Part shown: piece by piece, positions 2,558 through 44,393 of the stretch | Position numbering within the stretch: the stretch's first letter is position 1 | Layout: every line of letters starts with the position of its first letter | Source of the DNA: Plantactinospora endophytica | Lineage (GTDB): Bacteria; Actinomycetota; Actinomycetes; Mycobacteriales; Micromonosporaceae | Length of the DNA: 64,000 nucleotides | Direction: 5' to 3' | Assembly: GCF_016862915.1 (NCBI RefSeq) | Contig: NZ_BONW01000041.1 | Location: 186,001 to 250,000 of the forward strand | Program-made: the position numbers and the translations under genes | The notes under the pieces: generated by a model | What the model saw: the letters and a program-made list of their open reading frames with translations, nothing else | The model's database searches: none | Told to the model about the DNA's origin: nothing

Positions 2558-2600
2558 ACGACCGCCCCGTCACCTGCCGGTCAGGTGGTGGGGCGGTCGT
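2558..2600 (+). terminator. Intrinsic terminator after the riboswitch-controlled gene
   Basis: ACGACCGCCCC (2558-2568) pairs perfectly with GGGGCGGTCGT (2590-2600). The loop itself contains a second pairing, CACCTG with CAGGTG. It lies 15 bp after the stop codon and is followed by GTTGTG. The lack of a long T run is usual in actinomycetes. Confidence 0.8.
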
Positions 2601-2641
2601 GTTGTGCGGTGGGACCGGTGCACGGCTGGCATGATCGGCAG

Positions 2642-3546: not shown

Positions 3547-3600
3547 ATGCTCAGCCGGCCGCGCCGACCCCGACAAGGAACACCGCGATGCTCCGGGTGA
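3547..3600 (+). CDS. Possible 17-residue upstream leader peptide
   Basis: An ATG at 3547 is preceded by AAGGGAG, a good ribosome binding site, and opens a frame for MLSRPRRPRQGTPRCSG. It ends in TGA at 3598-3600, inside the first codons of the permease that starts at 3588. This arrangement could couple translation of the transporter to that of a short Arg-rich peptide. It does not match a leader peptide family I recognise and could be chance. Confidence 0.3.
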   Translation: MLSRPRRPRQGTPRCSG

Positions 3601-4556: not shown

Positions 4557-4650
4557 CCGGCGTACGGCGGCGGGACCGCAGGACGGAGTACGCCGCGCGG
4601 GTCGGCCGCGCGGAACAGGCGGGGAACGAGGGCGAGGGAGAGGCGATCCG

Positions 4651-5586
4651 ATGACTGTCGACGTACCACGACGATCCGCACCCGGGCCGGCGGTCGCGGT
4701 CCCCGCCGCCGACGAGGCGTGGATCGCGGCTCCCCGCCGGGACCGGCAGCTCGCCCGGCTGGCCCAGCTCGGCCGGGCGCTCCGGGCCCCGGCGGTGGGC
4801 ATCCCGGCGGCGGTCTTCCTGCTGGTGGTGCTGGCCTGCTTCGCCGGGCCGGCGCTGCTGGGCCTGCCGTCGCCGGTCACCGGCGACCTGGCGGACGCGA
4901 TGGCCCCGATGGGCTCGCCCGGGCACCTGCTCGGCACCAACGAACTCGGCAACGACGTGCTGTCCCGGCTGCTGCACGGCGGCCGGGTGTCGATCGTCGT
5001 CGGGCTCGGCGCCACCGCGATCAGCCTGGCGGCGGGCGCACTGCTCGGGGTGACCGCCGGCTTCTTCGGCGGCTTCTACGAGACCTTCGTGATGCGGCTC
5101 TTCGACACCCTGCTGGCCTTTCCCGGGCTGATCCTGGCCCTGGTGATCGCCGACTACCTCGGCCCGAGCCTGACCAACACCACGCTGGCGATCAGCCTCT
5201 TCGGAGTCTCCCGGTTCGGCCGGCTGGCCTGGTCGCAGACCCTCACCGTCCGGCACCGGGACTTCGTCACCGCCGCGCGCAGCGACGGCGCCGCCGCGCA
5301 CCGGGTGATCTTCGGGCACATCCTGCCGAACGTACTGCCCCCGCTGCTCGGCTTCGCCCTCTTCACCATCGGCACCGCGATGATGATCGAGGCCGGGCTG
5401 AGCTACCTCGGGCTCGGCGTGCCGGAGCCGGAACCCACCTGGGGCAACCTGATCGCCTCCGGCGACGCGTACCTGAGCAGCGATCCCCGGCTGGTCGTGC
5501 TGCCGAGCATGGCGCTGTTCGTCACGGTCCTGTCCCTGAACCTGGTCGCGGACGGGCTCCGCGGCCGGCTGACCGAGGAGCGCTGA
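4651..5586 (+). CDS. Dpp/Opp-type ABC transporter permease, DppC-like (system A)
   Basis: A 311-residue permease. Hydrophobic segments begin at about residue 50, and there is the N-terminal OppC-type motif HLLGTNELGNDVLSRLLHG. The EAA loop is RDFVTAARSDGAAAHRVIF. I chose the ATG at 4651, which follows the strong site GAGGGAGAGG; earlier in-frame codons would overlap the DppB-like gene by an unlikely extension. Its stop TGA shares a base with the ATG of the next gene (TGATGA). It pairs with the DppB-like protein to form the channel of system A. Confidence 0.88.
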   Translation: MTVDVPRRSAPGPAVAVPAADEAWIAAPRRDRQLARLAQLGRALRAPAVGIPAAVFLLVVLACFAGPALLGLPSPVTGDLADAMAPMGSPGHLLGTNELGNDVLSRLLHGGRVSIVVGLGATAISLAAGALLGVTAGFFGGFYETFVMRLFDTLLAFPGLILALVIADYLGPSLTNTTLAISLFGVSRFGRLAWSQTLTVRHRDFVTAARSDGAAAHRVIFGHILPNVLPPLLGFALFTIGTAMMIEAGLSYLGLGVPEPEPTWGNLIASGDAYLSSDPRLVVLPSMALFVTVLSLNLVADGLRGRLTEER

Positions 5587-6677
5587 TGACGGAGAACGGC
5601 ACCGTCCGGGCCCCGGCGGCCGTCCCGGTGGTCGAGGTCGAGGACCTGACCGTACGGGTACGGCGCGGCTCGACCCTGCTGACCCTGGTCGAGGGGCTCT
5701 CCTACCAGGTGGCTCCGGCCCGCTCGTTGGCGATCGTCGGCGAGTCCGGCGCCGGCAAGTCGATCGGCATCCGGGCGGTGCTCGGGCTGCTCGACCCACG
5801 CCGCTTCGAGGTCACCGGCACCGTACGCCTGGCCGGCGTCGACCTGGCCACCCTGCCGAAGGCGAAACGGCGCGGCCTGGTGACGAGCGTGGCGTCGCTG
5901 GTGTTCCAGGACCCGACCCGGTCGCTGAACCCGACGATGCGGGTCGGGCCACAGATCGCCGAGGCGATGCTGGCCGGGTCCGGCCGTCCGGACGAGGCGG
6001 CCGGCGAGCCGGCGGTGGGTCGCGCGGAGGCACGCCGCCGCAGTGTCGAGCTGATGCGCGACGTCGGGATCGCCGCACCGGAGGAGCGGTACTTCGCCTA
6101 TCCGCACGAGCTGTCCGGCGGGATGCGGCAGCGCATCGTGATCGCCATCGCGCTGGCCTGCCAGCCAAAGGTGATCTTCTGCGACGAGCCGACGTCCTCG
6201 CTGGACGTGACCACCCAGGCGGCCATCATTGACCTGCTGGACGGGCTGCGCGAGTCCCGGTCGATCGGCACCGTCGTGGTCACCCACGATCTCGCGCTCG
6301 CCGCCTCCCGGGCCGAACAGGTACTGGTGATGTACGGCGGGCAGGCCGTCGAGACCCTGCCGGCCAAGGGCATCGCCCGGACCTCCCGGATGCCGTACAC
6401 GCAGGCGCTGATCCGGGCGGTGCCGGACGTCGGTACGCCGGGCCGCCCGCCCCGGCCGATCGAGGGCCTGCCGCCGGATCCGCGTACGCCGCCGCCGGGC
6501 TGCGCCTTCGCGCCCAGGTGCGAGCACGTCCGGGACGACTGTGCCGAGGAGCGACCGGCGCTGGTCGAGGTGTCGACCGGTCACTCCGTCCGCTGCTGGC
6601 ACCCGGTGGCGGTGACCGGGCAGGAAACCACGGCGGCGAACCTGCCGGCCGCCCGGCAACCGGAGGTGACCCGATGA
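5586..6677 (+). CDS. Dpp/Opp-type ABC transporter ATPase, DppD-like (system A)
   Basis: A 363-residue ATP-binding subunit. Walker A is GESGAGKS, the signature is [15 protein letters not shown], Walker B is VIFCDEPTSSLD, and the switch His is in VVTHDLAL. The C-terminal oligopeptide-transporter extension carries the Cys cluster [17 protein letters not shown] found in DppD/OppD proteins. Its start overlaps the upstream stop (TGATGA) and its stop overlaps the next start (ATGA), so the four transporter proteins are translationally coupled. Confidence 0.9.
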   Translation: MTENGTVRAPAAVPVVEVEDLTVRVRRGSTLLTLVEGLSYQVAPARSLAIVGESGAGKSIGIRAVLGLLDPRRFEVTGTVRLAGVDLATLPKAKRRGLVTSVASLVFQDPTRSLNPTMRVGPQIAEAMLAGSGRPDEAAGEPAVGRAEARRRSVELMRDVGIAAPEERYFAYPHELSGGMRQRIVIAIALACQPKVIFCDEPTSSLDVTTQAAIIDLLDGLRESRSIGTVVVTHDLALAASRAEQVLVMYGGQAVETLPAKGIARTSRMPYTQALIRAVPDVGTPGRPPRPIEGLPPDPRTPPPGCAFAPRCEHVRDDCAEERPALVEVSTGHSVRCWHPVAVTGQETTAANLPAARQPEVTR

Positions 6678-7852
6678 CGCCCGAGCCGACCCACCCGACG
6701 ACCACGGAGCCGACGGTGCTGGACTGCGCCGACGTGGTGCAGGAGTTCAGGGTGAAGGGGCGCCGGCCGTTCCGACGGGCGACCGTGTCGGCGGTGGCCG
6801 GGGTGAGTTTCAGCATCGCCCGGGGCGAGACGTTCGCCCTGGTCGGCGAGACCGGCTCCGGCAAGTCCACGCTGGCCCGTACGGTGATCGGCGCACCCGG
6901 GCCGGTCAGCGGCCGGATCACCGTCAGCGGTCGTACGGTGGGCCGGCGTCGTCGGGCGGAGCGGGGCGGGCGGCGTACCGGCGGCGTCCAGATGGTGTTC
7001 CAGGACCCGTTCTCCGCGCTCGATCCACGCTGGACGGTGGAGCGGAGCGTGGCGGAGCCGCTGGTCACCGCCGGGGTTCGGTCGGTACCGGAACGCCGTC
7101 GCCGGGTCGCCGAGATCCTGCACCTGGTCGGGCTGAGCGCCAGCCGGTTCGGCGGCCGGCGGCCCCGGGAACTCTCCGGCGGCCAGGCCCAGCGGGTGGC
7201 CATCGCCCGCGCCCTGGTGTCCCGGCCGGATCTGGTCATCCTGGACGAGCCGGTGACCGCGCTCGACGTGTCGGTGCAGGCCCAGGTGTTGAACCTGCTC
7301 TTCGAGCTGAAGCGCCGGCTGTCGCTGACCTGCCTGCTGATCGCGCACGACCTGGCCGTGGTGCGTACCCTCGCGGACCGGACCGGGATCATGTATCTCG
7401 GTCGGCTCTGCGAGACGGCGCCGACGGACGAACTGTTCGCCAACCCGGCGCACCCGTACACCGCCGCGCTGCTCTCGGCGATTCCGCCGGCCCTGGACGC
7501 CGAGACCGTCCGGGAGCGGATCCCGGTGGTCGGCGAGCAGCCCTCGCCGCTGCGGCCACCGTCCGGCTGCCGGTTCCGCACCCGCTGCGTCCACGCCCGG
7601 CAGACCTGCGCCGAGTCGGTGCCGGAGCTGCGCGAGATCGCCCCGGGGCACCGGGTGGCCTGTCACTTCCCGCTCGTCGGCGCCCCGTCGACCGCCGATC
7701 GCCCGGCCGATCGGGGACCGTCGGCCACCGACCTTCCGGCCGATCCCGGACCGTCGCTCACCGGCCTTCCGGTCGACCCCGGACCGTCGGCCGCCCCCGC
7801 CGGGCCGGGGCCCGGTCCCACCTCCCGAACCACTGCCGGAGAACAAGGGTGA
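6674..7852 (+). CDS. Dpp/Opp-type ABC transporter ATPase, DppF-like (system A), with repeat tail
   Basis: The second ATPase of system A, 392 residues. Walker A is GETGSGKST, the signature is [15 protein letters not shown], Walker B is LVILDEPVTALD, and the C-terminal Cys cluster is [18 protein letters not shown]. After the conserved end, near HRVACHFPLVG, it carries an extra tail of about 50 residues built from 11-residue repeats of the type TDLPADPGPSL. DppF proteins normally stop soon after the Cys cluster, so the tail is an addition. The next gene begins within its stop region (GGTGA). Confidence 0.88.
   Translation: MTPEPTHPTTTEPTVLDCADVVQEFRVKGRRPFRRATVSAVAGVSFSIARGETFALVGETGSGKSTLARTVIGAPGPVSGRITVSGRTVGRRRRAERGGRRTGGVQMVFQDPFSALDPRWTVERSVAEPLVTAGVRSVPERRRRVAEILHLVGLSASRFGGRRPRELSGGQAQRVAIARALVSRPDLVILDEPVTALDVSVQAQVLNLLFELKRRLSLTCLLIAHDLAVVRTLADRTGIMYLGRLCETAPTDELFANPAHPYTAALLSAIPPALDAETVRERIPVVGEQPSPLRPPSGCRFRTRCVHARQTCAESVPELREIAPGHRVACHFPLVGAPSTADRPADRGPSATDLPADPGPSLTGLPVDPGPSAAPAGPGPGPTSRTTAGEQG
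7702..7794 (+). repeat. 33-bp tandem repeats in the DppF-like gene tail
   Basis: Three imperfect 33-bp units, each containing GGACCGTCG, encode the 11-residue repeats at the C terminus of the system A DppF-like ATPase. They lie outside the conserved ATPase and probably arose by slipped replication. Confidence 0.65.
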
Positions 7853-7857
7853 TTGCT

Positions 7858-8607
7858 GTGGAATCCGTGAAGATCTATTTCGATCCCAGGTGTCCGTGGT
7901 GCTATCTGACCACCAAGTGGGCCTGGCGACTGGCCGAGCTGGGTGAGATCGAGCTGGACTGGGGCCTGTTCTGCCTGGAGATCCTCAATCTCCCGGAGGG
8001 TGCGGACCCGCTCGAACTGAAGGCGGTCTCCGGTCCGGCACTGCGCTGCGCGGTGGCGATCCGGGAGCGGGCCGGCTCCAAGGCGATCGGTCCGTTCTAC
8101 CGGGCGCTGGCCCGGCGTACCTGGGAATCCCGGCCGCCCGCGCCGGACCTGGTGGTGGCGGTCCGGGAGTCGGTGGTCGAGGCCGGCTTCGAGGCGGACC
8201 TCTTCGACACCGCGCTGGCCGACCCGCAGACCTGGGCGGCGGTGGTCGCCGAGCACCAGGAGCTGTTCGGCCGGGCCCGCAGCATCGGGGTACCCACCAT
8301 CGCGCTGGACGGCGGCGACGGGCCGATGATCTTCGGCCCGGTGCTGAACCGGATGCCCAGCGACGACGAGGCGGTCGAACTCTGGCGGCACGTCTCCTGG
8401 CTGGTCCGCTACGACAACTTCTCCGAGCTGAAGCGCGGCCGGCTCGGCCCGCCGACGCTGCCGGCGGTCTTCTTCGACGACGGCACCCGGACCCCGTGGT
8501 GGCCGTGGGGCCAGCGCCCGTGGGTCGCCCCCGAGCCCGACCCCGATCCCACGAAGCAGCCGGCGGAGTCGACGACCGGAACGACAGAGAACGGAGCGGA
8601 AAGATGA
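7858..8607 (+). CDS. DsbA-fold protein, Rv2466c-like (mycothiol-dependent nitroreductase family), copy 1
   Basis: Thioredoxin-like protein of 249 residues with the active site CPWC (Cys12, Cys15), a helical insertion, the cis-Pro loop GVPT, and the family C-terminal signature IFGPVLNRMP followed by NFSELKR. These features align well with Mycobacterium Rv2466c, a mycothiol-dependent reductase. I prefer the GTG at 7858, since it gives MESVKIYFDPR, matching MEKITFLFDPR and MEKVLFYFDPR of the two other copies; AAGGG lies eight bases upstream. GTG at 7849 is also possible. The stop overlaps the binding-protein ATG (ATGA). The C-terminal 40 residues are Pro/Asp/Thr-rich. An older name for such sequences, HCCA isomerase, is less apt because the CxxC is intact. 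Confidence 0.85.
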   Translation: MESVKIYFDPRCPWCYLTTKWAWRLAELGEIELDWGLFCLEILNLPEGADPLELKAVSGPALRCAVAIRERAGSKAIGPFYRALARRTWESRPPAPDLVVAVRESVVEAGFEADLFDTALADPQTWAAVVAEHQELFGRARSIGVPTIALDGGDGPMIFGPVLNRMPSDDEAVELWRHVSWLVRYDNFSELKRGRLGPPTLPAVFFDDGTRTPWWPWGQRPWVAPEPDPDPTKQPAESTTGTTENGAER

Positions 8608-10175
8608 GACGGCGGAACGTACTCCTCCGGTTGGCCCTGGTCGGATGCGTCGGCCTGGCCACGGCGGCCTGCGGCGGTGGTGGTGGTGGTGCCACCGGCG
8701 CCGGCGGGGCGAACGGGAAGATCACGGTCGGCGGCTACAACTACAAGACCCTGGACCCGGGCGGCACCGGGTACATCAGCAAGTCGGTGCCGATCTCGCT
8801 GGACATCTACGGCTCGCTCTTCGACCCGCCGGAGTCCAAGGACGGCGACTTCGTCCCCGACCTGGCCACCGGGTACAAGTACAGCGACGACCTGAAGACG
8901 CTCACCATCGAGCTGCGCCAGGGGGTGACCTTCTCCGACGGTACGCCGTTCGACGCCGAGGCGGTGGTCTACAACTTCGAGCGGTACAAGCAGGCGGAGT
9001 CGCCGAACGCGCAGTACTTCCGGCAGATGGAGTCGGTCAGGGCGACCGGTACGCACCAGGTCACGATGAACTTCTCCGTGCCGACCGCGACGATGGTCGC
9101 CTTCCTGACCTACACCCCGGCGACGCTGATCGCCTCGCCGACCGCGCACAAGAAGGCGGGCCAGCAGCAGTTCGGGCTGAAGCCGGTCGGGGCCGGACCG
9201 TTCGAGATCGTCAGCCACAAGCCCGGCGAGGAGCTGGTGCTCAAGCCGTTCGAGAAGTACTGGGACCGGGCCAACGTGCACCTGGCCGAGGTGAAGTTCA
9301 TCAACACCAGCCCGGAGGCGCAGGTCTCCTACCAGCACGTCGCCTCCGGCTCGATCGACAGCGTGCAGGTCAGCGGGGTCTCCACCCCGCCGAACGTGCT
9401 GGACGACGCCAAGGCCAACCAGCAGATCGCCACCATCGCCGGTGAGAACACCCTCTACGGCTTCCTGCCGATCAACACCTTCAAACCGCCGTTCAACCGG
9501 CCGGAGGCGCGACAGGCGATCAACTACTGCACCGACCGGGACTCGATCGCCACCAACGTGCAGCGCGGCTGGGTCACCCCGGCGTACGTGCTGGCCGGCG
9601 CGGACAGCCTGTACTACCCGGACGGTGGGGTGTCCGGCGCGAAGGCACAGTTCCCGTACCCGTTCGACCCGGTCAAGGGCAAGGCGCTGGTCGACCAGCT
9701 CGGTGGGCTGGAGTTCACCCTGCTCAACATCGGCGGTCACTCGCAGGTGATCTCGAACGCGCTGGCCCAGCAGTGGCAGCAGTGCGGGATCAAGGCGCAG
9801 GTCAAGGCGGTGCAGGGCCCGCAGCTCAGCGAGGCGTACTCGGACGGCACCTACCAGATGGCGTACGCCTTCAGTGGCGGCATCAACGACCCGCAGTTCT
9901 ACACCTCGTTCCAGTCGCCGAACACCCCGCAGGGCAAGCACGGCTTCGCCCGGGAGCACCCCGAGGTCCCCGAGCTGATCCAGTCGGCGAACCGGACCGT
10001 CGACCCGGAGGTCCGCAAGACCACCTGGCGCAAGGTCTGGACCTCGATGAACGACCTGGCGGTGGACATCCCGATCATCAGCGGGCCGAACTACACCTTC
10101 CAGAACAAGTGCCTGGCCGACGTCGACTTCGCGGCGGTCGGCGCCCAGTTCAAGAGCGCCCGACTGACCTGTTAG
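8604..10175 (+). CDS. Peptide-type substrate-binding lipoprotein (SBP family 5), system A
   Basis: A 523-residue extracellular binding protein of the DppA/OppA family. The signal ends in the lipobox TAAC (Cys at about residue 23) followed by Gly-rich spacer GGGGGGATGAGG. The conserved family segment is LTIELRQGVTFSDGTPFDAEAVVYN around residues 95-120, followed by VGAGPFEIV. It would be lipid-anchored outside the membrane and deliver substrate to the DppBC-type channel. It sits last in the coupled operon, overlapping the DsbA-fold gene by ATGA. Placement of the binding protein after a redox protein is unusual. Confidence 0.9.
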   Translation: MRRRNVLLRLALVGCVGLATAACGGGGGGATGAGGANGKITVGGYNYKTLDPGGTGYISKSVPISLDIYGSLFDPPESKDGDFVPDLATGYKYSDDLKTLTIELRQGVTFSDGTPFDAEAVVYNFERYKQAESPNAQYFRQMESVRATGTHQVTMNFSVPTATMVAFLTYTPATLIASPTAHKKAGQQQFGLKPVGAGPFEIVSHKPGEELVLKPFEKYWDRANVHLAEVKFINTSPEAQVSYQHVASGSIDSVQVSGVSTPPNVLDDAKANQQIATIAGENTLYGFLPINTFKPPFNRPEARQAINYCTDRDSIATNVQRGWVTPAYVLAGADSLYYPDGGVSGAKAQFPYPFDPVKGKALVDQLGGLEFTLLNIGGHSQVISNALAQQWQQCGIKAQVKAVQGPQLSEAYSDGTYQMAYAFSGGINDPQFYTSFQSPNTPQGKHGFAREHPEVPELIQSANRTVDPEVRKTTWRKVWTSMNDLAVDIPIISGPNYTFQNKCLADVDFAAVGAQFKSARLTC

Positions 10176-10281
10176 GAGACCGCGGAGCTGTCCACAGACG
10201 CGGTGCCGTCAGGCGACGGCCCGAGCTGTCAGGTGAGCGCGGTGCCGTCAGGTGAGCGCGGAGCTGTTAGGAGATTGCGGA
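10170..10281 (+). repeat. Partial tandem duplications between the lipoprotein and the DinB-fold gene
   Basis: The end of the lipoprotein gene, CTGTTAGGAGACCGCGGAGCTG, reappears as CTGTTAGGAGATTGCGG just before the next start codon. Between them GCGGTGCCGTCAGG occurs twice, and GCCGTCAGGCGACGGC (10205-10220) forms a small hairpin. The second copy supplies the ribosome binding site TAGGAG of the downstream gene, so the duplication created or preserved its translation signal. Confidence 0.6.
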
Positions 10282-10830
10282 ATGGATCTGCTGGTGGAGC
10301 TGGACAAGGCTCTGGAGACGTTCGGGAAGCGGCTGGCGGCGGTCGGCCCGGACCAGTGGACGGCGGGTACCCCGTGCACCGAGTGGGACGTGTCGGCGCT
10401 GGTCCGGCACGTGATCGAGGGCAACGCGCACTGCGGCCAGCTGCTGCGCGGTGAGGAGGTGGACCGGACCCCGGTCGGCGACGACCTGACCGGGACCTGG
10501 TCGGCCAGCATCGAGGTGATCCGCTCGGCGTTCCGTGAGCCGGGCGCGATGACCGCCGAGGTACGGCTGCCGAAGCGCACGGTCAGCGGCGAGCAGTTCC
10601 TGATCATGCGGATCAGCGGGCTGGTGGTGCACAGCTGGGACCTGGCTCGGGCGATCGGGGCCGCCGAGGAGATGGACGAGGGCCTGGTCCGGCTGGCGTA
10701 CGGGTTCTTCGCCCCGGCGGCGGCCGAGGGCAGTCTGCCGGCGGACCGGTTCGGGGCGCCGTTGCCGGCGGCCGAGCCCGAGGCCGACCTGTTGACCCGG
10801 CTGCTGCTCGCCTGCGGGCGCAACCCGTGA
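10282..10830 (+). CDS. TIGR03086-type DinB-fold protein (mycothiol-dependent isomerase relative)
   Basis: A 182-residue protein of the actinobacterial DinB/maleylpyruvate-isomerase N-terminal superfamily. The hallmark segments are TPCTEWDVSALVRHVIEGN (about residues 31-49) and VVHSWDLARAIG (about 119-130), whose His residues are the usual metal ligands. In this superfamily the metal activates mycothiol; the Corynebacterium maleylpyruvate isomerase of gentisate breakdown is a member. The ATG at 10282 has AGGAG upstream. It lies between two peptide-type transporter operons and 20 kb from a gentisate-like operon that lacks its own isomerase, so it could fill that role. That is inference. Confidence 0.75.
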   Translation: MDLLVELDKALETFGKRLAAVGPDQWTAGTPCTEWDVSALVRHVIEGNAHCGQLLRGEEVDRTPVGDDLTGTWSASIEVIRSAFREPGAMTAEVRLPKRTVSGEQFLIMRISGLVVHSWDLARAIGAAEEMDEGLVRLAYGFFAPAAAEGSLPADRFGAPLPAAEPEADLLTRLLLACGRNP

Positions 10831-10885
10831 CACCCCGGCCTGGATGTGTTAGGAATTCTCGTGGACGAAACGTGGATAGGTCTCG

Positions 10886-10902
10886 TTTCTGCTCTCCAAA
10901 AC
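10886..10902 (+). promoter_or_regulatory. IclR-type operator, site 2 (weak match)
   Basis: TTTCTG-CTCTC-CAAAAC has one mismatch in each half relative to GTTCTG-N5-CAGAAC. It lies 59 bp upstream of the second transporter operon, in the only sizeable gap between the two systems (10831-10960). Alone it would not be convincing; its position ahead of another transporter of the same family makes it worth listing. Confidence 0.35.
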
Positions 10903-10960
10903 TCGGTACCGGAATCATCGGTGCCGATGCCCGGGTCTGCCCTGGAATGTGCGGTGATCG

Positions 10961-12010
10961 ATGTCTGACACCCTGACCCGCTCGCCGGGCCGCTCCGACC
11001 GCCCTGCGGTCCGGCCGCCCCGCGCGGCCGGCCTGCTGAACCGCTCACCGGCGGTACGCGTCGCGATCAAGCGGGTACTCCAGGCCGTCCCGGTCGTCTG
11101 GGGCGCCACCTTCATCACGTTCTGCCTGATGAACCTGCTGCCCGGCAACGCCGCCGTCGCACTGCTCGGCGACGACGCCACCCCGGAGCAGGTGGCGGCG
11201 CTCTCGGCCCGGCTCAACCTGGACGAACCGTTCCTGGTCCGCTACCTCCAGTGGCTGGGCAACGCGCTCACCGGCGATCTGGGCAACTCGTTGCAGAACA
11301 ACGAGCCGGTCACCGCCATCCTCGGCCGGGCCCTGCCGGTCTCGCTGGAGCTGGTGGTGCTGGCCTTCGCGCTGGCGCTGCTGGTCGCGGTACCGACCGC
11401 CGTGGTCGCGGCGAAGCGCCCCGGCGGCTTCGCCGACCGGATCGGGATGCAGATCAGCATGTTCGGACTCTCGGTGCCGAACTTCGTCTTCGCCCTGGTC
11501 CTGGTGCTGGTCTTCGCGGTCGGCCTGCGGGTACTGCCCGCCGTCGGGTACGTCCCGATCGGGCAGGGGCTCGGGCCGAACCTGCGGGCGATGATCCTGC
11601 CGGCCACCGCGATCGCGTTCGCGCTGTTCTGCGAGTACACCCGGGTGCTCCGGGCCGACATCGTCGACCAGATGCTCCGGGAGGACTACATCACCACCGC
11701 CCGGGCCAAGGGGGTCGGGAGCTGGCAGGTGCTGGTCCGGCACGCGCTGCGCAACTCGGTGTTCAGCCTGCTGACCATCGTCGGGCTCCAGTTCGGCGCG
11801 CTGATCGGCAGCACCGTGATCATCGAGCAGATGTTCGGGCTGCCGGGCATGGGGCAGGGGCTGCTCCAGGGGATCAACAACCGGGACATCCCGGTCGTCC
11901 AGGCGTACGTGGTGGTGATGGCCTGCTTCGTCGTCGGCGCCAACCTCGTCACCGACCTGCTCTACGCCGTCCTCGACCCAAGGATCCGCCATGGCCGTCC
12001 AGCCGCCTGA
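10961..12010 (+). CDS. Dpp/Opp-type ABC transporter permease, DppB-like (system B)
   Basis: A 349-residue permease with about 30 extra N-terminal residues before the first membrane helix (VLQAVPVVWGATFITFCLM). The family extracellular segment is LNLDEPFLVRYLQWLGNALTGDLGNS, here read in two parts. The EAA loop is EDYITTARAKGVG followed by HALRNSVF. It overlaps the following DppC-like gene by 20 bp. System B is arranged like system A, but has no binding protein of its own; it must share one of the two peptide-type lipoproteins in this window or one elsewhere. Confidence 0.88.
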   Translation: MSDTLTRSPGRSDRPAVRPPRAAGLLNRSPAVRVAIKRVLQAVPVVWGATFITFCLMNLLPGNAAVALLGDDATPEQVAALSARLNLDEPFLVRYLQWLGNALTGDLGNSLQNNEPVTAILGRALPVSLELVVLAFALALLVAVPTAVVAAKRPGGFADRIGMQISMFGLSVPNFVFALVLVLVFAVGLRVLPAVGYVPIGQGLGPNLRAMILPATAIAFALFCEYTRVLRADIVDQMLREDYITTARAKGVGSWQVLVRHALRNSVFSLLTIVGLQFGALIGSTVIIEQMFGLPGMGQGLLQGINNRDIPVVQAYVVVMACFVVGANLVTDLLYAVLDPRIRHGRPAA

Positions 12011-12911
12011 CCTCGCCACCGTCCGCCCCGGTGCCGACCCGGCCGCCGACCCGCTCGACGCCGGACCGCGCCCACGCGGCCGGACCGGCCGACGCGCGCG
12101 GCGGCGTACCGGCAAGGGGCTCTGGATTCCCGGGACCATCCTCGGGCTGATCGTGCTGGCCTGCTTCGTCTGGCCGCTGGTCTACCGGGACCTGCCGTCA
12201 CCGACCGCCGGCTCGCTGCTCCAGGCGAACCTGCCGCCGTTCTCGCCCGGACACCTGCTCGGCACCGACCCGCTCGGCAACGACATCGTCTCCCGGCTGC
12301 TGCACGGCGGCCGGGTGTCGCTGGAGGTCGGACTCACCTCCAACGCCATCGGCCTGCTGCTCGGCGGCTCGCTCGGGATGTTCGCCGCGTTCCGGGGCGG
12401 CTGGCTGGAGACGGTCACCATGCGGCTGCTGGACATGCTGATCGCGTTCCCGTCCCTGGTGCTGGTGCTGGTCGTCTCGACCTACCTCACGCCGAGCAAG
12501 CTGAACGTGATCTGGGCGATCTCGTTCTTCTCCATCCCGACCTTCGCCCGGCTGGCCCGGGCCGCCACGCTCCGGCTCCGCGAGCAGGTGTACGTCGTCG
12601 CCGCCCGGCTCGCCGGAGCGCGGGACTCGGCGATCCTGCTCCGGCACATCGCCCCGAACGTGCTGCCCCAACTGCTCACCTACAGCCTGCTCTGGGTGGC
12701 CGCCGCGATCGCCATCGAGGCGTCGCTGAGCTTCCTCGGGTTCGGCGTACCGGCGTCGGAGCCGAGCTGGGGGATGATGATCTCGCGCGGTCAGGCGTAC
12801 ATCTCCAGCAATCCGGAACTGGTGCTGATCCCGAGCGCCTGCCTCTTCCTCACCATCGTCTGCCTCAACACCCTCGGCGACGCCCTGCGAGCCCGGACCG
12901 GTGCGCCATGA
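11991..12911 (+). CDS. Dpp/Opp-type ABC transporter permease, DppC-like (system B)
   Basis: A 306-residue permease with a long cytoplasmic N terminus rich in Arg/Pro, then membrane segments from about residue 45. The OppC motif is HLLGTDPLGNDIVSRLLHG and the EAA loop is EQVYVVAARLAGARDSAIL. The ATG at 11991 lies within the end of the DppB-like gene, and its stop overlaps the next ATG (ATGA), which points to coupled translation of the whole transporter. Confidence 0.88.
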   Translation: MAVQPPDLATVRPGADPAADPLDAGPRPRGRTGRRARRRTGKGLWIPGTILGLIVLACFVWPLVYRDLPSPTAGSLLQANLPPFSPGHLLGTDPLGNDIVSRLLHGGRVSLEVGLTSNAIGLLLGGSLGMFAAFRGGWLETVTMRLLDMLIAFPSLVLVLVVSTYLTPSKLNVIWAISFFSIPTFARLARAATLRLREQVYVVAARLAGARDSAILLRHIAPNVLPQLLTYSLLWVAAAIAIEASLSFLGFGVPASEPSWGMMISRGQAYISSNPELVLIPSACLFLTIVCLNTLGDALRARTGAP

Positions 12912-13951
12912 CGACCCAGATCCAGCCGGACGCCGCCGCCCGGACGGGCGACCCGGACGCGCCACTGCTGACCATCGAGAACCTGGAGGTCACCTTCCGG
13001 ACCCGGGACGCCCCGGTGCACGCGGTACGCGGGGTCGACCTCACCGTGTACGCCGGGCAGACGCTCGCGGTGATCGGCGAGTCCGGCTCCGGCAAGACCG
13101 TCACCTCCCGGGCCGTCATGGGCCTGCTGCCCCGGACCGCCAGCGTGCGCGGCTCGATCCGGCTCGGCGACCGCCAGATGGTCGGGCTCGGCGAGAAGGA
13201 ACTGCGGAAGTGCCTGGGCCGCGAGGTCGGGATGATCTTCCAGGACCCGGCCCGGTCGCTGAACCCGACGATGCGGATCGGCAGCCAGCTCACCGAGGCG
13301 ATCCGGGTGCACCTGCCGCTGGACCGCCGCCAGGCCCGGGAGCGCGCGGTCGAACTGCTGGCGATGGTACGGCTGCCCGCGCCGGCCCGGCGCTTCCACG
13401 AGTACCCGCACCAGCTCTCCGGCGGAATGCGTCAACGGGTGATGATCGCCATCGCGCTGGCCTGCCAGCCGAGGCTGCTGATCGCCGACGAGGCGACCAC
13501 CGCGCTGGACGTCACCACCCAGGCGCAGATCATGGACCTGCTGCTCGACCTGCAACAGCGGTTCGCGATGGGGCTCGTACTGATCAGCCACGACATGGGG
13601 CTGGCCGCCTCGTACGCCGACCAGGTCGCCGTGATGTACGCCGGCCGGGTGGTCGAACGCGCCCCGACCCGGGAGATGATCGCGCACGTCCGGATGCCGT
13701 ACACCCGGGCCCTGCTGGACGCGACACCGAGGCTGGAACGCCCGCCGCACGCCCCGCTGCCGGTGATCTCCGGCCGGCCGCCGGACCTGCGGGCACTCGA
13801 CCCCGGCTGCGCCTTCGCCCCGCGCTGCTCACGCGTGCGGGAGCGCTGCCGGCAGGAGCGGCCGGAGCTGGCCGAGCACCAACCCCGGCACGAGTGGGCC
13901 TGCTTCTTCCCCTGCGCGGACGACACCATCCCCGGTGAGGACGAGAGATGA
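12908..13951 (+). CDS. Dpp/Opp-type ABC transporter ATPase, DppD-like (system B)
   Basis: A 347-residue ATPase. Walker A is GESGSGKT, signature [15 protein letters not shown], Walker [13 protein letters not shown] (Glu followed by Ala rather than the usual Pro), and the Cys cluster is [17 protein letters not shown] near the C terminus. Both ends overlap neighbours by ATGA. Confidence 0.88.
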
Positions 13952-14997
13952 CGACGGGAAACGGGACCGGCCGGCCCCTGCTGGAGGTCCGCAACCTGGT
14001 CCAGGAGTTCGTGGTACGCGCCCACGGCGGGGTACGCGGTGGAGTGGTGCACGCCGTCTCCGACGTTTCCTTCGAGGTACGCGCGGGGGAGACCCTGGGC
14101 GTTGTCGGGGAGACCGGTTCCGGCAAGTCGACGATGGTCCGTTCGGTGCTCCAGGCGCCGCCGCCGAAGTCGGGCGAGGTGTGGTTCCAGGGTGTCGACC
14201 TGGCCACCGCCCGCCGAAGGCGGGACCTGGTCGCGGCCCGCCGGCAGATGCAGGCGGTCTTCCAGGACCCGTACGGCTCACTGGATCCGAAGTGGACGGT
14301 CTTCTCGATCGTGGAGGAGCCGCTGGCCGCGTACCGGACCGGGGACCGGCGGCAGCGGCGGGCCCGGGTCGAGGAGGTGCTCGATCTCGTCGGGCTCGAC
14401 CCGTCGGTCTTCGGCGACCGGAAGCCGGGGCAACTCTCCGGCGGCCAGTGTCAACGGGTGGCGATCGCCCGGGCGCTGACCCTCGCCCCGGCACTCATCG
14501 TCTGCGACGAGGCGGTCTCCTCGCTGGACGTGCTGAGCCAGGCGCAGGTGCTCAACCTCTTCGAGCGGCTGCGTACCGAACTCGGGCTCTCCTATCTCTT
14601 CATCGCGCACGACCTGGCCCTGGTGAAGCAGGTCAGCGACCGGGTCGCGGTGATGTACCTGGGTACGCTCTGCGAGGTCGGTCCGGCCGAGGAACTGTAC
14701 CGGAACCCGCTGCACCCGTACACGAAGGCGCTGCTCGACTCGATTCCCAGCCCGGACCCGGAGCGGCCCCGGCCGAGGGTGCCGGACGAGCTCGCCGGCG
14801 AGCCGCCGTCCCCGCTCGACCCGCCGAGCGGCTGCCGCTTCCGGACCCGCTGCCCCCGGGCGGCCGACATCTGCGCCGCCGAGGCGCCGCCGGTCCGGGC
14901 CGCCCGACCGGACCACACCGTGGCCTGCCACTTCCCGCTCTCCCCGGTCGCCCCGGTCTCCCCGGCGCGGCACGGCGGCGACGGCGCGGCCGACTAG
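13948..14997 (+). CDS. Dpp/Opp-type ABC transporter ATPase, DppF-like (system B)
   Basis: A 349-residue ATPase. Walker A is GETGSGKST, signature [15 protein letters not shown], Walker [13 protein letters not shown], and the C-terminal Cys cluster is [17 protein letters not shown]. Unlike the system A counterpart it has no long repeat tail. It is followed 15 bp later by the second Rv2466c-like gene. Confidence 0.88.
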
Positions 14998-15012
14998 AGA
15001 CGAGGTACCCGC

Positions 15013-15786
15013 ATGGAGAAGATCACCTTCCTGTTCGACCCGCGCAGCCCGTGGTGCTACCAGACGTCCCGTTGGGCCCGCCGGCTCGAGGCGCTCGGCG
15101 AGATCGAACTGGACTGGGGGCTGTTCTCCCTGGAGGTCGTCAACCTGGCCGCCGACGAGGACCCGGCCGCGCTCGACGCGGAGTACGGCGCGGCGCTGCG
15201 TACCGCGATCCTGCTGCGCGACCGGCACGGCCGGGCCGAGATGGGCCGGTTCTACGCCGCGCTCGGTGCGCTGATGTGGGAGCAGGAACCACCGGCCGCC
15301 GGCCCGGACGGCCCCGCCCCGGCACCGTCCAGCGCGGAGAGTTCCCGGGCGGCACTGGCGGCGCTCGGCCACGATCCGGCGCTGGTCGACGCGGCGACCG
15401 CCGACCCGGCCACCTGGACCGCCGTGCTCGCCGAGCATCGGAGCTGGCTCGACCGGGTACGCGGCTTCGGTGTGCCGACCCTGGTCTTCGACGGCGGTGC
15501 GGGGCCGGCGGTCTTCGGACCGGTGATCCGGGAACTGCCCGACGACGAGACCTGTGTCGAGCTGTGGCGACACTTCTCCGGCCTGGCCCGCTACGACTAC
15601 CTATTCGAGGTGAAGCGCCGCAAGGAGTTGACCCTGCGGGCCGAACTGCCCGCCGCCGTGTGGCGGGCCGACCTGCGGGTCCAGGCGATGCGCGCCGCCC
15701 GGGAGGCGCAACGGCCGGGTGGCCCGTACGAGGGGTCCAGCCTGGAGTGGGCGATGGCCGGCCTCCGCCAGGACTCCACCTCCTGA
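15013..15786 (+). CDS. DsbA-fold protein, Rv2466c-like, copy 2 with Ser replacing the first active-site Cys
   Basis: A 257-residue paralogue of the proteins at 7858 and 41217. The N terminus is MEKITFLFDPRSPWCY, so the CPWC active site is SPWC (Ser12, Cys15). The cis-Pro loop GVPT and the C-terminal FGPVIRELP and FEVKRRK segments are retained. It also has an internal Ala/Pro-rich insertion near residue 95-120. Loss of the N-terminal Cys removes the residue expected to attack the substrate or mixed disulfide in a CxxC enzyme, so the mechanism must differ or the protein may be a binding paralogue. It closes the system B operon. Confidence 0.85.
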   Translation: MEKITFLFDPRSPWCYQTSRWARRLEALGEIELDWGLFSLEVVNLAADEDPAALDAEYGAALRTAILLRDRHGRAEMGRFYAALGALMWEQEPPAAGPDGPAPAPSSAESSRAALAALGHDPALVDAATADPATWTAVLAEHRSWLDRVRGFGVPTLVFDGGAGPAVFGPVIRELPDDETCVELWRHFSGLARYDYLFEVKRRKELTLRAELPAAVWRADLRVQAMRAAREAQRPGGPYEGSSLEWAMAGLRQDSTS

Positions 15787-22236: not shown

Positions 22237-23493
22237 TCAGCCGAACAGGGCGGTCGCCTCGGCGAGGGTGGCGCCGGACCGGACCGCGGTACGCAGCTTC
22301 GGCAGCGTCTCCGGCATGCCGAAGGCGAGTGCGGCGCTGACCCGCCCACCGGCATGGCGTACGGCGACGAAGCGTTCGCCGTCCGGTGACCGGTGCAGCA
22401 CGGTGCTCTCGTCGTCGGGCCCGGCCAGCCCGACGAGCTGTACCTTCAGCCCGTAGTGGTCGGTCCAGACGTACGGCGTCTGGGCGGTGACCCGGCGGTC
22501 GGCGGGCGGCCGGAGCAGGTTGTACGCGACGACTCCGGCCTGCTCGACCGCGCTGGTCCAGTGCTCGACCCGCCGTGGCTCGACGTGCCCGGCGACCGGC
22601 CAGCGGGCCACGTCGCCGACGGCCCAGACCGCCGGGTCGGTGCTGGTGACCCCGGTGCCGTCGCAGCGAACCCCGTCGGTCAGCTCCAGCGAGCTGCCCC
22701 GCAGCCAGCCGGTGTTCGGCAGTACGCCGATCCCGACCACCACCAGGTCGGCGTCGAGCAGCGTGCCGTCGTCGAGTTCGACGGTGGTCACCCGGTCGGC
22801 GCCGTGCACGGCGCGGACCGCCCGTCCGGTGTGGAACCGGACGCCGTGCCGGCGGTGCAGGTCGAGCAGGGCGGTGCCGGCGAGCGTACCGAGTTGCGCG
22901 GCGAGCGGGTCGGGGCGTGGCTCGACGACGGTGACCGGCAGGCCGCGCCGGGCGGCGGCCGAGGCGAGTTCGGTGCCGATGAAACCCGCCCCGACCACCA
23001 CCACCCGGGGTGCGGTGTCGAAGGCGTCCCGGATCGCCGTCGCGTCGTCGAGCCGGCGCAGGTCGTAGACGCCGGTGTCGGGGGTCGGGAACGGCCACGG
23101 GCGGGGTGCCGCCCCGGTCGCCACCACCAGGGCGTCGAAGTCGATCCGGGCGCCGGAGCGGAGTACCACCGCCCGGCCCGGCTGGTCGAGGGCCTCGGCC
23201 GGGTCGCCGAGCCGGACCTCGATGCCCTGCTCGGCGAGCTGTTCCGGGCTGGCCAGCCGGGTCCGGTCCGGCGTCCACTCGCCGAGGAGTACCTGCTTGG
23301 AGAGCGGCGGGCGGTCGTACGGCAGCCAGGGCTCGGCACCGACCAGCGTTATCGTCCCGGCGAACCCGTTGCGGCGCAGGCCCAGCGCGGTGCGTACCCC
23401 GGCCAGCGACGCGCCGACCACGACGACCCGGTCCGGCGGTCGATGGTCCGGGGCGACGGCCTGCCCGCCGGTCACGCCGGCAACGTCGGTCAC
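22237..23493 (-). CDS. NAD(P)H-dependent ferredoxin reductase of a P450 system
   Basis: A 418-residue flavoprotein of the putidaredoxin-reductase type. The FAD-binding loop is VVVGASLAGVRTALGLRR near the N terminus, the NAD(P)H loop is VVVVGAGFIGTELASAA (about residues 140-156), and the second FAD motif is VWAVGDVARWP. It passes electrons from NAD(P)H to the adjacent ferredoxin. The GTG start overlaps the ferredoxin stop (GTGA). Third gene of the operon P450, ferredoxin, reductase. Confidence 0.88.
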   Translation of the reverse strand: MTDVAGVTGGQAVAPDHRPPDRVVVVGASLAGVRTALGLRRNGFAGTITLVGAEPWLPYDRPPLSKQVLLGEWTPDRTRLASPEQLAEQGIEVRLGDPAEALDQPGRAVVLRSGARIDFDALVVATGAAPRPWPFPTPDTGVYDLRRLDDATAIRDAFDTAPRVVVVGAGFIGTELASAAARRGLPVTVVEPRPDPLAAQLGTLAGTALLDLHRRHGVRFHTGRAVRAVHGADRVTTVELDDGTLLDADLVVVGIGVLPNTGWLRGSSLELTDGVRCDGTGVTSTDPAVWAVGDVARWPVAGHVEPRRVEHWTSAVEQAGVVAYNLLRPPADRRVTAQTPYVWTDHYGLKVQLVGLAGPDDESTVLHRSPDGERFVAVRHAGGRVSAALAFGMPETLPKLRTAVRSGATLAEATALFG

Positions 23494-23687
23494 GCCGGGC
23501 CGACCTCGATGGCCTGGGCCGGGCAGAGGAACTGGGCGTCGGAGAGGTCGTCGGCGAGGTCGTCGTCGGCCTCGGTCAGGTGGTCGAGGTCGCCGTCGTC
23601 GGTGAACCGGAACACCGAGGGGACCCGTTCGACGCACTGGCCGTGCAGCTCGCAGTGCGCCCGGTCCACCGCCACCCGCAGGCTCAC
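23490..23687 (-). CDS. P450-associated [3Fe-4S]-type ferredoxin
   Basis: A 65-residue ferredoxin with the cysteine spacing of P450 partner ferredoxins: HCELHGQC (Cys12, His15, Cys18) and a distant LCPAQAI (Cys55). His at the place of the second cluster Cys suggests a three-iron cluster or an atypical four-iron cluster. The GTG start is within the P450 stop (GTGA), and the stop overlaps the reductase start. The middle is very acidic, suited to docking with partners. Confidence 0.88.
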   Translation of the reverse strand: MSLRVAVDRAHCELHGQCVERVPSVFRFTDDGDLDHLTEADDDLADDLSDAQFLCPAQAIEVGPA

Positions 23688-24898
23688 GCCGGCACCTCCC
23701 CGGTCGGCCGGAACACCAGCCGGGCCGGCAGCGAGGTCGGACCGTGGTTGATGAAGCTGGCCAGGTACGGCACCTCGTCCGGCGGGGTGAGCGGGGTGAT
23801 CTCGGTGACCCGGTCGAGCAGGGTCTCGACCACCACGACTCCTTCCAGCCGGGCCAGCGAGGAGCCGATGCAGGCGTGCGGTCCCTTGCCGAAGGCCAGG
23901 TGTGCGGCGGCGTTGGGCCGGTCGAGCTTGAGGTGCGGGCACTGTTCCCAGGCGGCGGGGTCGCGGTTGGCGGCCTGGTAGAGCACCAGCAGCCGGGAGC
24001 CGGCCGGGATCTCGGTGCCGCCGACCACCGAGTCTTCCAGCGCGAGCCGGTAGAAGCCCTGGATCGGCGATTCGAGCCGCAGCGACTCCTCGATGAACCG
24101 GGGGATCAGCGCCGGCTCGGCCCGGAGCCGGTCGGCGATCCCGGGGTTCTCGGCGAGCAGCTTCATGCTGCTGGCCAGGTGGTGGGTGGTGGTGATGTTG
24201 CCGGCGATCAGCAGCTCGATGGTGAAGCTGACCGCCTCGCGCCGGGTCAGTTCGCCGGCCCGGTCCGCCGCGACGATGGTGGAGAGGACGTCGTCGCCGG
24301 CCCGGCCGTCGTGTCGGTTCATCAGGGCGTCCATGTACCCGGTGAACTCGCGCTGCACCCGGTCCCGCTTCTCCGGGTCGGCGGCGTGTCCGCCGAGCGA
24401 TCCGGTGATCTCCTCGGACCAGGCCCGGAACTTGTCCACGTCGTCGGCGGGTACCCCGAGCAGGGCGCTGATCACGCGTACCGGGAGCGGGGCGGCGATC
24501 CGTTCGACCAGGTCGACGGGGTCGATGCCGCGTAGCGCGTCGACGTGTTGCTCGGCGATCCGCCGCACCACCGGCTCCCAACTCCGTACCTGGGACGGGG
24601 TGAAGGCGCGGTTGACGATCGAGCGCCGGGTGGCGTGCACCGGGTCGTCGGAGAGCAGCAGCAGCGGGCGGAGCCGGTTCGGGTCGTCGTTCGGCGACGG
24701 TGGCGGGTTTCCGACAGTGATGGTCGAGGAGAACCGCTTGGCGTCCCGGAGTACCCGGCTGACGTCCTCGTGGCCGGAGACCACGTACGCGCTCACCTCG
24801 GGGGCGAAATGCACGCCTTTCGCCCGTAGCTCGTCGTAGACGGAACCCGGGTCGCGCAACGCCTCCGGGGCGAGTCCTACCAGGTCGGCCAGTGACAT
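23684..24898 (-). CDS. Cytochrome P450
   Basis: A 404-residue bacterial P450. The I-helix motif is AGNITTTHH, the K-helix ExxR is ESLRLESP, and the haem loop is AFGKGPHACIGSSLAR with the Cys ligand. It would hydroxylate a small organic molecule using the coupled ferredoxin and reductase. I chose the ATG at 24898, which has GGGAGA eight bases upstream; longer frames lack a site. It is divergent from the IclR regulator gene (188-bp gap), which suggests but does not prove shared control with the aromatic catabolic island. Confidence 0.9.
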   Translation of the reverse strand: MSLADLVGLAPEALRDPGSVYDELRAKGVHFAPEVSAYVVSGHEDVSRVLRDAKRFSSTITVGNPPPSPNDDPNRLRPLLLLSDDPVHATRRSIVNRAFTPSQVRSWEPVVRRIAEQHVDALRGIDPVDLVERIAAPLPVRVISALLGVPADDVDKFRAWSEEITGSLGGHAADPEKRDRVQREFTGYMDALMNRHDGRAGDDVLSTIVAADRAGELTRREAVSFTIELLIAGNITTTHHLASSMKLLAENPGIADRLRAEPALIPRFIEESLRLESPIQGFYRLALEDSVVGGTEIPAGSRLLVLYQAANRDPAAWEQCPHLKLDRPNAAAHLAFGKGPHACIGSSLARLEGVVVVETLLDRVTEITPLTPPDEVPYLASFINHGPTSLPARLVFRPTGEVPA

Positions 24899-25051
24899 GG
24901 AACAATCTCCCATCGACCAGCGGCGCGATGCCCAGGGATCTGCGCCTTCCAGTGGCGGAGCACCCCGGTGCTGGCGCTCGAAACGCGTCGTCGCCCGGTC
25001 GTGGGTAGCGCGGGTGGTCGGTGCTCTCGGGCAGAAACCTACGTCGGGAGT

Positions 25052-25080
25052 CTGCACAGTAGCAAGACCCTGGCTATCAT
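25052..25080 (+). promoter_or_regulatory. Candidate promoter of the IclR gene (near-leaderless)
   Basis: CTGCAC at 25052-25057 and TATCAT at 25075-25080 are separated by 17 bp. The ATG at 25087 is only seven bases past the -10 element and has no ribosome binding site, so the transcript would be leaderless, which is common in actinomycetes. Confidence 0.45.
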
Positions 25081-25086
25081 TCCGCC

Positions 25087-25860
25087 ATGAAGAATGAGCC
25101 GGCCGTTCCGCCGTATCACATCGCATCGGTCGACCACGCCCTGCGGCTCCTGCTGCTGCTGAAGACCAAGCCGAGCATCCGGGTCGCGGAGGCGGCCGAC
25201 GAACTGAACGTCGCCCGCTCCACCGCACACCGGCTGCTGGCGATGCTCGTCTACCGCGGTTTCGCGGCGCAGAATCCGACCACCCGGGCGTACCACCCCG
25301 GGCCGGTGCTGATCGAGGTCGGGATGGGCGCGCTGTCCAAGCTCGACGTCCGGCGCAAGGCCCGGCCGTACCTGGAACGCCTGGTGGCGACGACCGGGGA
25401 GACCGCGAGCCTGCAGATTCTGGAGGGCAGCCACGTCCGGTTCGTCGACTCGGTCGAGTCCGCCAACGCCGTCCGGGTCGCCAGTCGGGCCGGGGTCAGC
25501 CTGCCGGCGCACGCCTCGTCCGGCGGCAAGGTGCTGCTCGCCGGCATGTCGTTGGAGGCGGTGCAGCGGCTCTATCCGCACGAGAAGCTGGAGCAGGTGA
25601 CCGAGGCGACCAACACCGAGCGGAGCACCCTGTTCGAGGAGTTGGCCGAGGCCAGGGCGCAGGGGTACTCGGTCAACCACGGGGAGAGCGAGCCGGGGCT
25701 GGTCGCGGTGGGCGTACCGTTGCCGGATCGCAGCGGTGCCCCGGTCGCCTCGCTGACCATCGCCGGCCCGACCGCCCGGATGGGGCCGGAAGGGGTGAAC
25801 CGGGCGGTGGAGGCGCTCCGGGAGGCGGCCCGGGAGTTGAGCGAGAGCCTCTACCGCTGA
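25087..25860 (+). CDS. IclR-family transcriptional regulator
   Basis: A 257-residue regulator. The N-terminal winged helix-turn-helix is at about residues 12-75 (ALRLLLLL, AEAADELNVARSTAHRLLAML), and the C-terminal IclR effector domain includes SLPAHASSGGKVLLAG and GESEPGLVAVGVPL. IclR proteins often control aromatic or acetate catabolism and bind palindromes. It lies divergent from the P450 operon and just ahead of the meta-cleavage operon, and the palindrome GTTCYG-N5-CAGAAY recurs ahead of several operons around it. It is the natural candidate for their regulator. Confidence 0.9.
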   Translation: MKNEPAVPPYHIASVDHALRLLLLLKTKPSIRVAEAADELNVARSTAHRLLAMLVYRGFAAQNPTTRAYHPGPVLIEVGMGALSKLDVRRKARPYLERLVATTGETASLQILEGSHVRFVDSVESANAVRVASRAGVSLPAHASSGGKVLLAGMSLEAVQRLYPHEKLEQVTEATNTERSTLFEELAEARAQGYSVNHGESEPGLVAVGVPLPDRSGAPVASLTIAGPTARMGPEGVNRAVEALREAARELSESLYR

Positions 25861-25908: not shown

Positions 25909-26079
25909 AACTGAGCCTGCTATTCCCTAGAGCGATGCACCGGGGCTAGCGTGTGGGCACTGCGTGGTCGCACCCGGCGTCGTCGCCGCCGTGACCGGGC
26001 CTGCGCCCGGATGCGCCGTCGACGAGGCCGGGGGCGACCGCCCCTCCACCGCGGTCACCACCAGCCCCGGGAGCGGCAC

Positions 26080-27081: not shown

Positions 27082-27118
27082 CGGATCGAGACCAGCGCCC
27101 GCGAGCCGTTCCGGCGGT
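27048..27118 (+). repeat. Duplicated 3' end of the LigJ-like gene
   Basis: The last 32 bp before the stop region (27048-27079) are repeated at 27087-27118 with 29 of 32 bases identical, an offset of 39 bp. The second copy lies in the intergenic gap and is untranslated. It appears to be a tandem duplication of the gene end. Confidence 0.75.
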
Positions 27119-27150
27119 GGCCGGGACGGGCGCGGGGGAGAGGAGCAGCC

Positions 27151-32950: not shown

Positions 32951-33008
32951 GTCTGCGGAACAGGCCGGTTCTGCGAGCCAGGCAGTCACGAACGGAAGGC
33001 CGGCACCG

Positions 33009-35368: not shown

Positions 35369-35396
35369 CGCCGATGCACATCCGGCGGGAGGAACG

Positions 35397-44381: not shown

Positions 44382-44393
44382 CCGGTACGCCGA

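Follow-up and report, generated by a model that had tools for sequence, protein, structure and literature searches.

In M. tuberculosis, the mycothiol-dependent nitroreductase Rv2466c (Mrx2), a member of the PF22234 family, uses Cys19 as its attacking residue, according to the accessible part of the source (PMC11841060). NCgl2478 of C. glutamicum, a mycothiol-dependent DsbA-like reductase of the DsbA-Mrx1 group, has the first Cys of its motif as the nucleophile; the available sections report that its C21S mutant is inactive on mycothiol mixed disulfide and that the second-Cys mutant is slightly faster than the wild type (PMC8280269). Both enzymes bear out the statement, made in a first-pass annotation of the DNA studied here, that the first Cys acts as the nucleophile. 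In kappa-class glutathione transferases (GSTs), the role ascribed to the active-site Ser is stabilisation of the thiol cofactor, not nucleophilic attack, and 2-hydroxychromene-2-carboxylate (HCCA) isomerase is a glutathione-using enzyme of aromatic catabolism. The kappa GST GSTK1, with the motif S16xxS19, is described in the accessible text of PMC10295636 as having a glutaredoxin-like activity dependent on Ser16 and as supporting roGFP2 recovery in cells, for which Ser16 is also needed. A Ser at this site therefore neither excludes a redox role nor proves a transferase, and by analogy a Ser enzyme can be a transferase or a reductase that works through the thiol of its cofactor. LigE, LigF, LigP and LigG are glutathione enzymes annotated as GSTs (available part of PMC12997858), and work on actinobacterial GSTs is called scarce in the portion of PMC8552685 at hand. 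Thiol transferases are central to organisms that use glutathione, and mycothiol users have few characterised counterparts. Among the titles listed in literature searches on Rv2466c, mycothiol-dependent enzymes and related transferases and isomerases, none names a Ser variant of the PF22234 family. A natural, fixed and constrained Cys-to-Ser switch in the Rv2466c family, beside an importer and aromatic-catabolism locus, lets one ask whether the Rv2466c fold took up transfer in place of reduction in organisms that use mycothiol; such a move would parallel the branch of this fold that holds kappa GST and HCCA isomerase.

The switch lies in RvB (15013-15786, + strand; a 257-aa open reading frame with an ATG start), one of three Rv2466c-like proteins in the window, the 64,000-nucleotide stretch of DNA from the soil actinomycete Plantactinospora endophytica analysed here. 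RvB reads FDPRSPWCY: Ser12 (codon AGC, 15046-15048) replaces the first Cys of the family, and the second residue of the resulting SxxC motif, Cys15 (TGC, 15055-15057), is retained. Its only other cysteine is Cys181 (15553-15555). PF22234 is the sole Pfam family above cut-off (65.4 bits against 27, profile positions 2-180 of 180); DSBA falls just below its cut-off, and no GST family, the type to which LigE, LigF, LigP and LigG belong, is listed in the Pfam search. RvB thus has Ser where kappa GSTs have it, reads S-P-W-C instead of the cysteine-free SxxS, and lacks the nucleophilic first Cys of the CP[W/F]C motif of the DsbA-Mrx1 reductases Rv2466c, NCgl2339 and NCgl2478.

The other two copies in the window, RvA (7849-8607, +; PF22234 75.3 bits) and RvC (41217-41930, +; 84.2 bits), both read CPWC in the alignment, as the first-pass annotation had reported. 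Its count of three holds for the window, but the whole genome has seven PF22234 copies, and the four beyond the trio read CPWA, CPWA, CPYT and CYWS (L001-L004). One CPWA copy (C41:178552; L117:12537-13166; 285 bits), about 7 kb before the start of the window, has an M1 peptidase gene on one side and rpiB on the other, accompanied by a DUF1015 gene. These flanks match the M. tuberculosis gene order pepN-Rv2466c-rpiB, and this copy is therefore likely the true Rv2466c orthologue and RvA, RvB and RvC extra paralogues. The second Cys is missing even in this likely orthologue.

The RvA-RvB-RvC trio occurs in three of seven Plantactinospora genomes. Orthologues of RvB are found in P. mayteni (L008, 95% identity) and in genome G058 (84%), with pairwise identities among the three of 82-94%. 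All three carry Ser12, each time as AGC, so the orthologue alignment proposed in the first-pass annotation gives a fixed Ser, and the Cys that would have pointed to a sequence error or private mutation is found in none of the Plantactinospora genomes that have the gene. Among the matches listed from a search of 300 genomes of the bacterial family, the best-scoring one outside the trio genomes is 38% identical. A family alignment (A2) was built from 55 rows picked from 77 different PF22234-family domain sequences; 22 were dropped, mainly near-duplicates, and one fragment without the motif (L041) was excluded from the comparison. The first motif position is Ser in all three RvB rows and Cys in the other 52, and the second is Ala in 30 of the 55 rows, Cys in 19, and Ser and Thr in 3 each. 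The first Cys is a family constant and the second position is free to vary. In the tree, RvB forms one group (support 100/100) that is sister to RvA plus RvC (99/93); the trio (99/94) is nested in a group of same-phylum proteins reading CPWC, CPWS or CPWA, so Ser is the derived state. A few branches of the tree are long, none of them within the group that holds the trio.

Genomes were also scanned at the DNA level for the patterns FDPxSP[WFY] or FDxxSPW, both of which require the FD..SP context, with TCN Ser codons on a class sample only and AGY codons on family and phylum samples only. The TCN pattern matched in six of 394 class genomes, the AGY pattern in four of 300 family genomes and a looser AGY pattern in two of 316 phylum genomes. 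Of the ten class and family loci, just the three that hold RvB were recognised by the A2 profile, which also gave no hit for the other match of the phylum scan (L142). These scans of 394, 300 and 316 genomes yielded no further Ser member of PF22234 and gave no sign that Ser recurs in the family beyond the RvB loci. The Ser switch is real, fixed and unusual within its family.

Nineteen alignment columns are near-invariant (one residue in at least 95% of the 48 rows that are not from the trio), and RvB keeps 17 of them, in line with the earlier remark that the rest of the family signature is preserved. The two that differ are C12S and A181C; position 181 is Ala in 51 of the 52 other rows and Cys in 3/3 RvB orthologues. 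RvA is altered in three near-invariant columns (S19T, S39C, G85A/S) and RvC in one (S39C). The Cys39 common to RvA and RvC, where 51 of 55 rows have Ser, is absent from the SPWC copy and was gained near the expected edge of the active site. Pairwise dS among the RvB orthologues is 0.29-0.41, and pairwise dN/dS is 0.12, 0.24 and 0.26, comparable to the CPWC sisters (RvA 0.22-0.28; RvC 0.13-0.19). RvB therefore gives no sign of decay, and by these ratios is under purifying selection. In the same run, comparisons with P. mayteni (G078) for a mycothiol maleylpyruvate-isomerase-family protein of the locus covered four codons only and were discarded.

An AlphaFold2 model of RvB built from the 55-row alignment (mean pLDDT 86.7, pTM 0.79) is weaker over residues 201-257 (pLDDT 55-72). 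Much of this part is a C-terminal extension of RvB's own (residues 206-257, low to moderate model confidence). Ranked by VIA-align, the model is nearest to Rv2466c (Z 20.3 for chains 5xur_C and 4zil_B, 19.5-20.3 over all Rv2466c chains), followed by Deinococcus DR2335 (17.7), kappa GST (14.7; chains 13.7-14.7) and an HCCA-isomerase candidate (14.2; HCCA isomerase chains 13.6-14.2 at 14-20% identity), with DsbA proteins behind these at 13.1 and below. Kappa GST is thus not the nearest of the DsbA-fold families, and in the Foldseek order many disulfide oxidoreductases precede kappa GST and HCCA isomerase, which appear from ranks 27 and 33 onward. The structure prediction suggested in the first-pass annotation accordingly puts kappa GST and HCCA isomerase among related folds, with Rv2466c clearly nearer, and the predicted RvB fold stays Rv2466c-like. 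Residue 181 falls in the first turn of a predicted helix (178-192), and the equivalent helix of thioredoxin folds starts near the edge of the active site.

RvB is the last gene of a closely spaced + strand run that holds two OppBCDF-type importers, RvA and a mycothiol maleylpyruvate-isomerase-family protein. Judged from gene spacing, the run (3588-15786) is one apparent operon. The first importer comprises two Opp/Dpp-type permeases (3588-4556 and 4528-5586; PF00528) and two ATPases (PF00005 and oligo_HPY; 5583-6677, with the start chosen in the analysis, and 6518-7852, whose true start is probably later than that of the open reading frame). RvA is followed by a family 5 solute-binding protein (8604-10175, +; PF00496; the longest open reading frame starts at 8496 and the start was chosen in the analysis) and by the mycothiol maleylpyruvate-isomerase-family protein (10252-10830, +; PF11716 46.1 bits; TIGR03086 134.4 against 83; TIGR03083 75.8 against 50). 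The second importer has permeases at 10961-12010 and 11991-12911 (PF00528) and ATPases at 12908-13951 and 13948-14997 (PF00005 and oligo_HPY), the last ending 15 bp before RvB; all genes of both importers are on the + strand. A macro-domain protein (2585-3169) precedes the first importer gene and is present in G058 and absent from the P. mayteni stretch read. Synteny is conserved: each of the other two species has 35 of the 37 window genes tested, among them 12/12 genes of the RvB run and 13/13 of the run from the IclR gene to RvC.

That second run, also on the + strand, lies about 10 kb from RvB, with minus-strand genes between. It starts with an IclR-type regulator (25087-25860; PF01614, PF09339), followed by a LigY-like amidohydrolase homologous to meta-cleavage C-C hydrolases (25951-27081; PF04909; phmmer 365 bits, E 5e-108 to chains 6e6i/5vn5, the biphenyl meta-cleavage hydrolase LigY of SYK-6), a LigB-type extradiol dioxygenase (27151-28182; PF02900; 49.8 bits to protocatechuate 4,5-dioxygenase beta) and two RraA-like aldolases (28179-28847 and 28990-29634; PF03737). 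Further along are an FAD monooxygenase (30435-31721; PF01494), an FAA hydrolase (32820-33893; PF01557; 185 bits to maleylpyruvate hydrolase 6jvv), an aldehyde dehydrogenase (35301-36893; PF00171), two short-chain dehydrogenases (SDRs; 36848-37690 and 37941-38732; PF13561), an enoyl-CoA hydratase family protein (38725-39585; PF00378) and a family 5 solute-binding protein (39595-41151; PF00496) directly before RvC. Among the matches listed, NCBIfam gave none over cut-off for the LigY homologue or the other ring-cleavage genes, so the putative pathway roles rest on Pfam and on similarity to LigY. SDRs were considered as LigD/L/N dehydrogenases, an assignment that found no support: the one at 112-1140 had no solved-structure match at E <= 1e-26, and the two matches of the one at 37941-38732 at E <= 1e-33 were both unspecific SDRs. 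Beside the IclR gene, on the minus strand (22237-25228), a cytochrome P450 and a ferredoxin-reductase-type gene possibly form an O-demethylase or hydroxylase pair. After RvC, the stretch 42072-52565 holds a GH127 beta-L-arabinofuranosidase, a GntR regulator, a sugar ABC transporter and an FGGY kinase, genes of a locus for plant cell-wall sugars that adjoins the aromatic one.

Homologues of LigY, LigB and the two RraA proteins occur together in all eight further regions compared (37-60 kb each, from five actinobacterial genomes and plasmids of Polymorphobacter, Aminobacter and Rhodococcus koreensis), and the aldehyde dehydrogenase in five. The recurrence of this set (25951-28182 in the window) in actinobacteria and alphaproteobacteria suggests a widespread ring-cleavage route. 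No Rv2466c-like gene was detected near it in any of the eight (A2 profile, E <= 1e-3, over the 37-60 kb read), and the idea that core ring cleavage requires such proteins is therefore not supported. Permease and binding-protein homologues are found only in Aminobacter, where an Opp-like transporter adjoins the LigY-LigB-RraA set, so the set can use such an importer and does not need Rv2466c-like proteins. Nor is there support for the idea that Rv2466c-like genes generally stand beside Opp importers. Fourteen regions around distant relatives of the trio, in one of which (L088) the gene caller missed the relative itself, gave only SDR and ABC-ATPase similarities, and 86 loci of Rv2466c-like relatives, mostly with short flanks and some overlapping one another, gave only SDR or ABC-ATPase matches, in six loci; in these samples the distant relatives have neither importers nor ring-cleavage genes as neighbours. 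Because the module elsewhere and the distant relatives both lack the association, the trio looks like a Plantactinospora-specific addition, whose role most likely concerns uptake or an initial, peripheral reaction.

Because the available part of PMC8280269 reports the equivalent NCgl2478 mutant as inactive, the classic Rv2466c chemistry is probably lost in RvB, and its long retention argues for another use. The "nitroreductase" label of PF22234 is then probably wrong for this protein, whose conserved Ser and setting suggest a change of chemistry. Our preferred proposal, with a probability of about 0.4, is that RvB works on an imported compound as a transferase, lyase or isomerase that depends on mycothiol. 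As a derived paralogue, RvB would no longer attack through a Cys, as in disulfide/nitro reduction, and mycothiol itself would serve as the nucleophile. The thiolate of mycothiol would be positioned and activated by Ser12, which stands where the active-site helix begins, much as glutathione is by the Ser of kappa GST. It could then attack an electrophilic aromatic or unsaturated compound brought in by the adjacent Opp-type importers, to yield a conjugate with mycothiol, the product of a lyase reaction or a cis-trans isomer. RvA and RvC, the copies with CPWC, may keep thiol-disulfide chemistry and, for example, remove the mycothiol again.

Several observations favour such a transferase, lyase or isomerase: Ser12 is fixed in three species under low dN/dS and is one of only two changes in the 19 near-invariant columns; kappa GST depends on Ser at the same site (PMC10295636, in the text available); and chains of kappa GST and the HCCA-isomerase candidate rank directly after Rv2466c and DR2335 in the fold comparison. 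The genome encodes MshA (638 bits against a cut-off of 462.5), and GST_N (PF02798), the only GST model searched, has no match in it. A protein of a mycothiol-enzyme family shares the gene run of RvB, genes for aromatic ring cleavage are found close by, and two further species retain both segments. Against it, Ser-type kappa GST retains its glutaredoxin-like activity, Cys15 is kept, many disulfide oxidoreductases stand ahead in the Foldseek order, and the ring-cleavage genes are separated from RvB and manage without an Rv2466c-like neighbour in 8/8 other genomes, from which it follows that no core ring-cleavage step needs RvB. The suggestion of the first-pass annotation that this paralogue moved away from reductase chemistry is thus strengthened by a fixed, constrained replacement of the nucleophile, with loss of the classic reaction likely by analogy with NCgl2478. 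Its direct step from Ser to kappa GST or HCCA isomerase has the Ser at the first motif position on its side, but is weakened by the redox activity of GSTK1, the retained SxxC and the Rv2466c-nearest fold.

An alternative that we consider unlikely, though the nearest fold is that of a reductase, is that RvB reduces disulfides or nitro compounds with mycothiol and independently of any cysteine. A mycothiol thiolate held by Ser12 would then attack a disulfide, a mechanism put forward for YfcG and for GSTK1 in its glutaredoxin-like role, and the need of GSTK1 (SxxS) for Ser16 in roGFP2 recovery fits this (PMC10295636, accessible text). NCgl2478 C21S, altered at the same site of the same family, is inactive with the mycothiol system in the sections available of PMC8280269, so Ser alone does not give reductase activity in this scaffold.

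It is likewise doubtful that RvB is non-catalytic, for instance an inactive subunit that pairs with RvA or RvC in a heterodimer, or a binder of mycothiol conjugates at the importer. The catalytic Cys is lost while the rest of the fold is kept, three co-conserved paralogues sit in one locus, and RvB has the C-terminal extension of its own, all of which would suit a partner protein. The near-invariant active-site positions are nevertheless kept except for C12 and A181, and dN/dS is similar to that of the CPWC sisters, with constraint showing no relaxation, though both would also be compatible with a binding role. More improbable still is a relocated redox cysteine, by which Cys181 would act with or instead of Cys15 and RvB would still be a thiol enzyme. 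A181C is the only other RvB-specific change in the 19 columns and is fixed in all three orthologues, Cys15 and Cys181 are the protein's only cysteines, and position 181 is within the initial turn of its predicted helix; Cys181 could also be structural or neutral.

A more specific idea, to which we give very little credence, is that RvA, RvB and RvC together with the mycothiol maleylpyruvate-isomerase-family protein form a mycothiol counterpart of the glutathione LigE/LigF/LigG system. An imported lignin-type dimer would be conjugated to mycothiol by the Ser-type RvB, with opening of an ether or comparable bond, and RvA and RvC, which have the Cys, would take the mycothiol off again reductively. 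This arrangement fits the LigY setting and the absence of any hit to GST_N, the GST model searched, but no ether-type dehydrogenase was identified among the SDRs searched. A sequence error or private decay of one copy is practically dismissed, since the same codon stands in three genomes at dS 0.29-0.41 with dN/dS of 0.12-0.26, and no support for it was found.

Returning to transfer, lyase or isomerase chemistry as the preferred reading, RvB can be set beside its described relatives. The LigE/LigF/LigP beta-etherases and LigG of Sphingobium SYK-6 are thiol-cofactor transferases for lignin-dimer catabolism, and the window shares a LigY homologue with that setting; they are glutathione GSTs by the available account, whereas RvA-C are PF22234 proteins. 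HCCA isomerase (2imd, and the candidate 3fz5) has a related fold (Z 13.6 and 14.2) but only 14-20% identity and a different catabolic context. GSTK1 resembles RvB in its DsbA-like fold and active-site Ser (Z 14.7 to 3rpp) and differs in using glutathione, in reading SxxS and not SxxC, and in its identity of only 13-17%. NCgl2478 needs, as far as the accessible sections go, the very Cys that RvB lacks. Rv2466c is the best sequence match among solved structures and the best fold match (rmsd 2.8-3.0 over 187-188 residues), and compared with it RvB has Ser for the first Cys, Cys for Ala181, about 50 extra C-terminal residues and a gene that stands beside importers.
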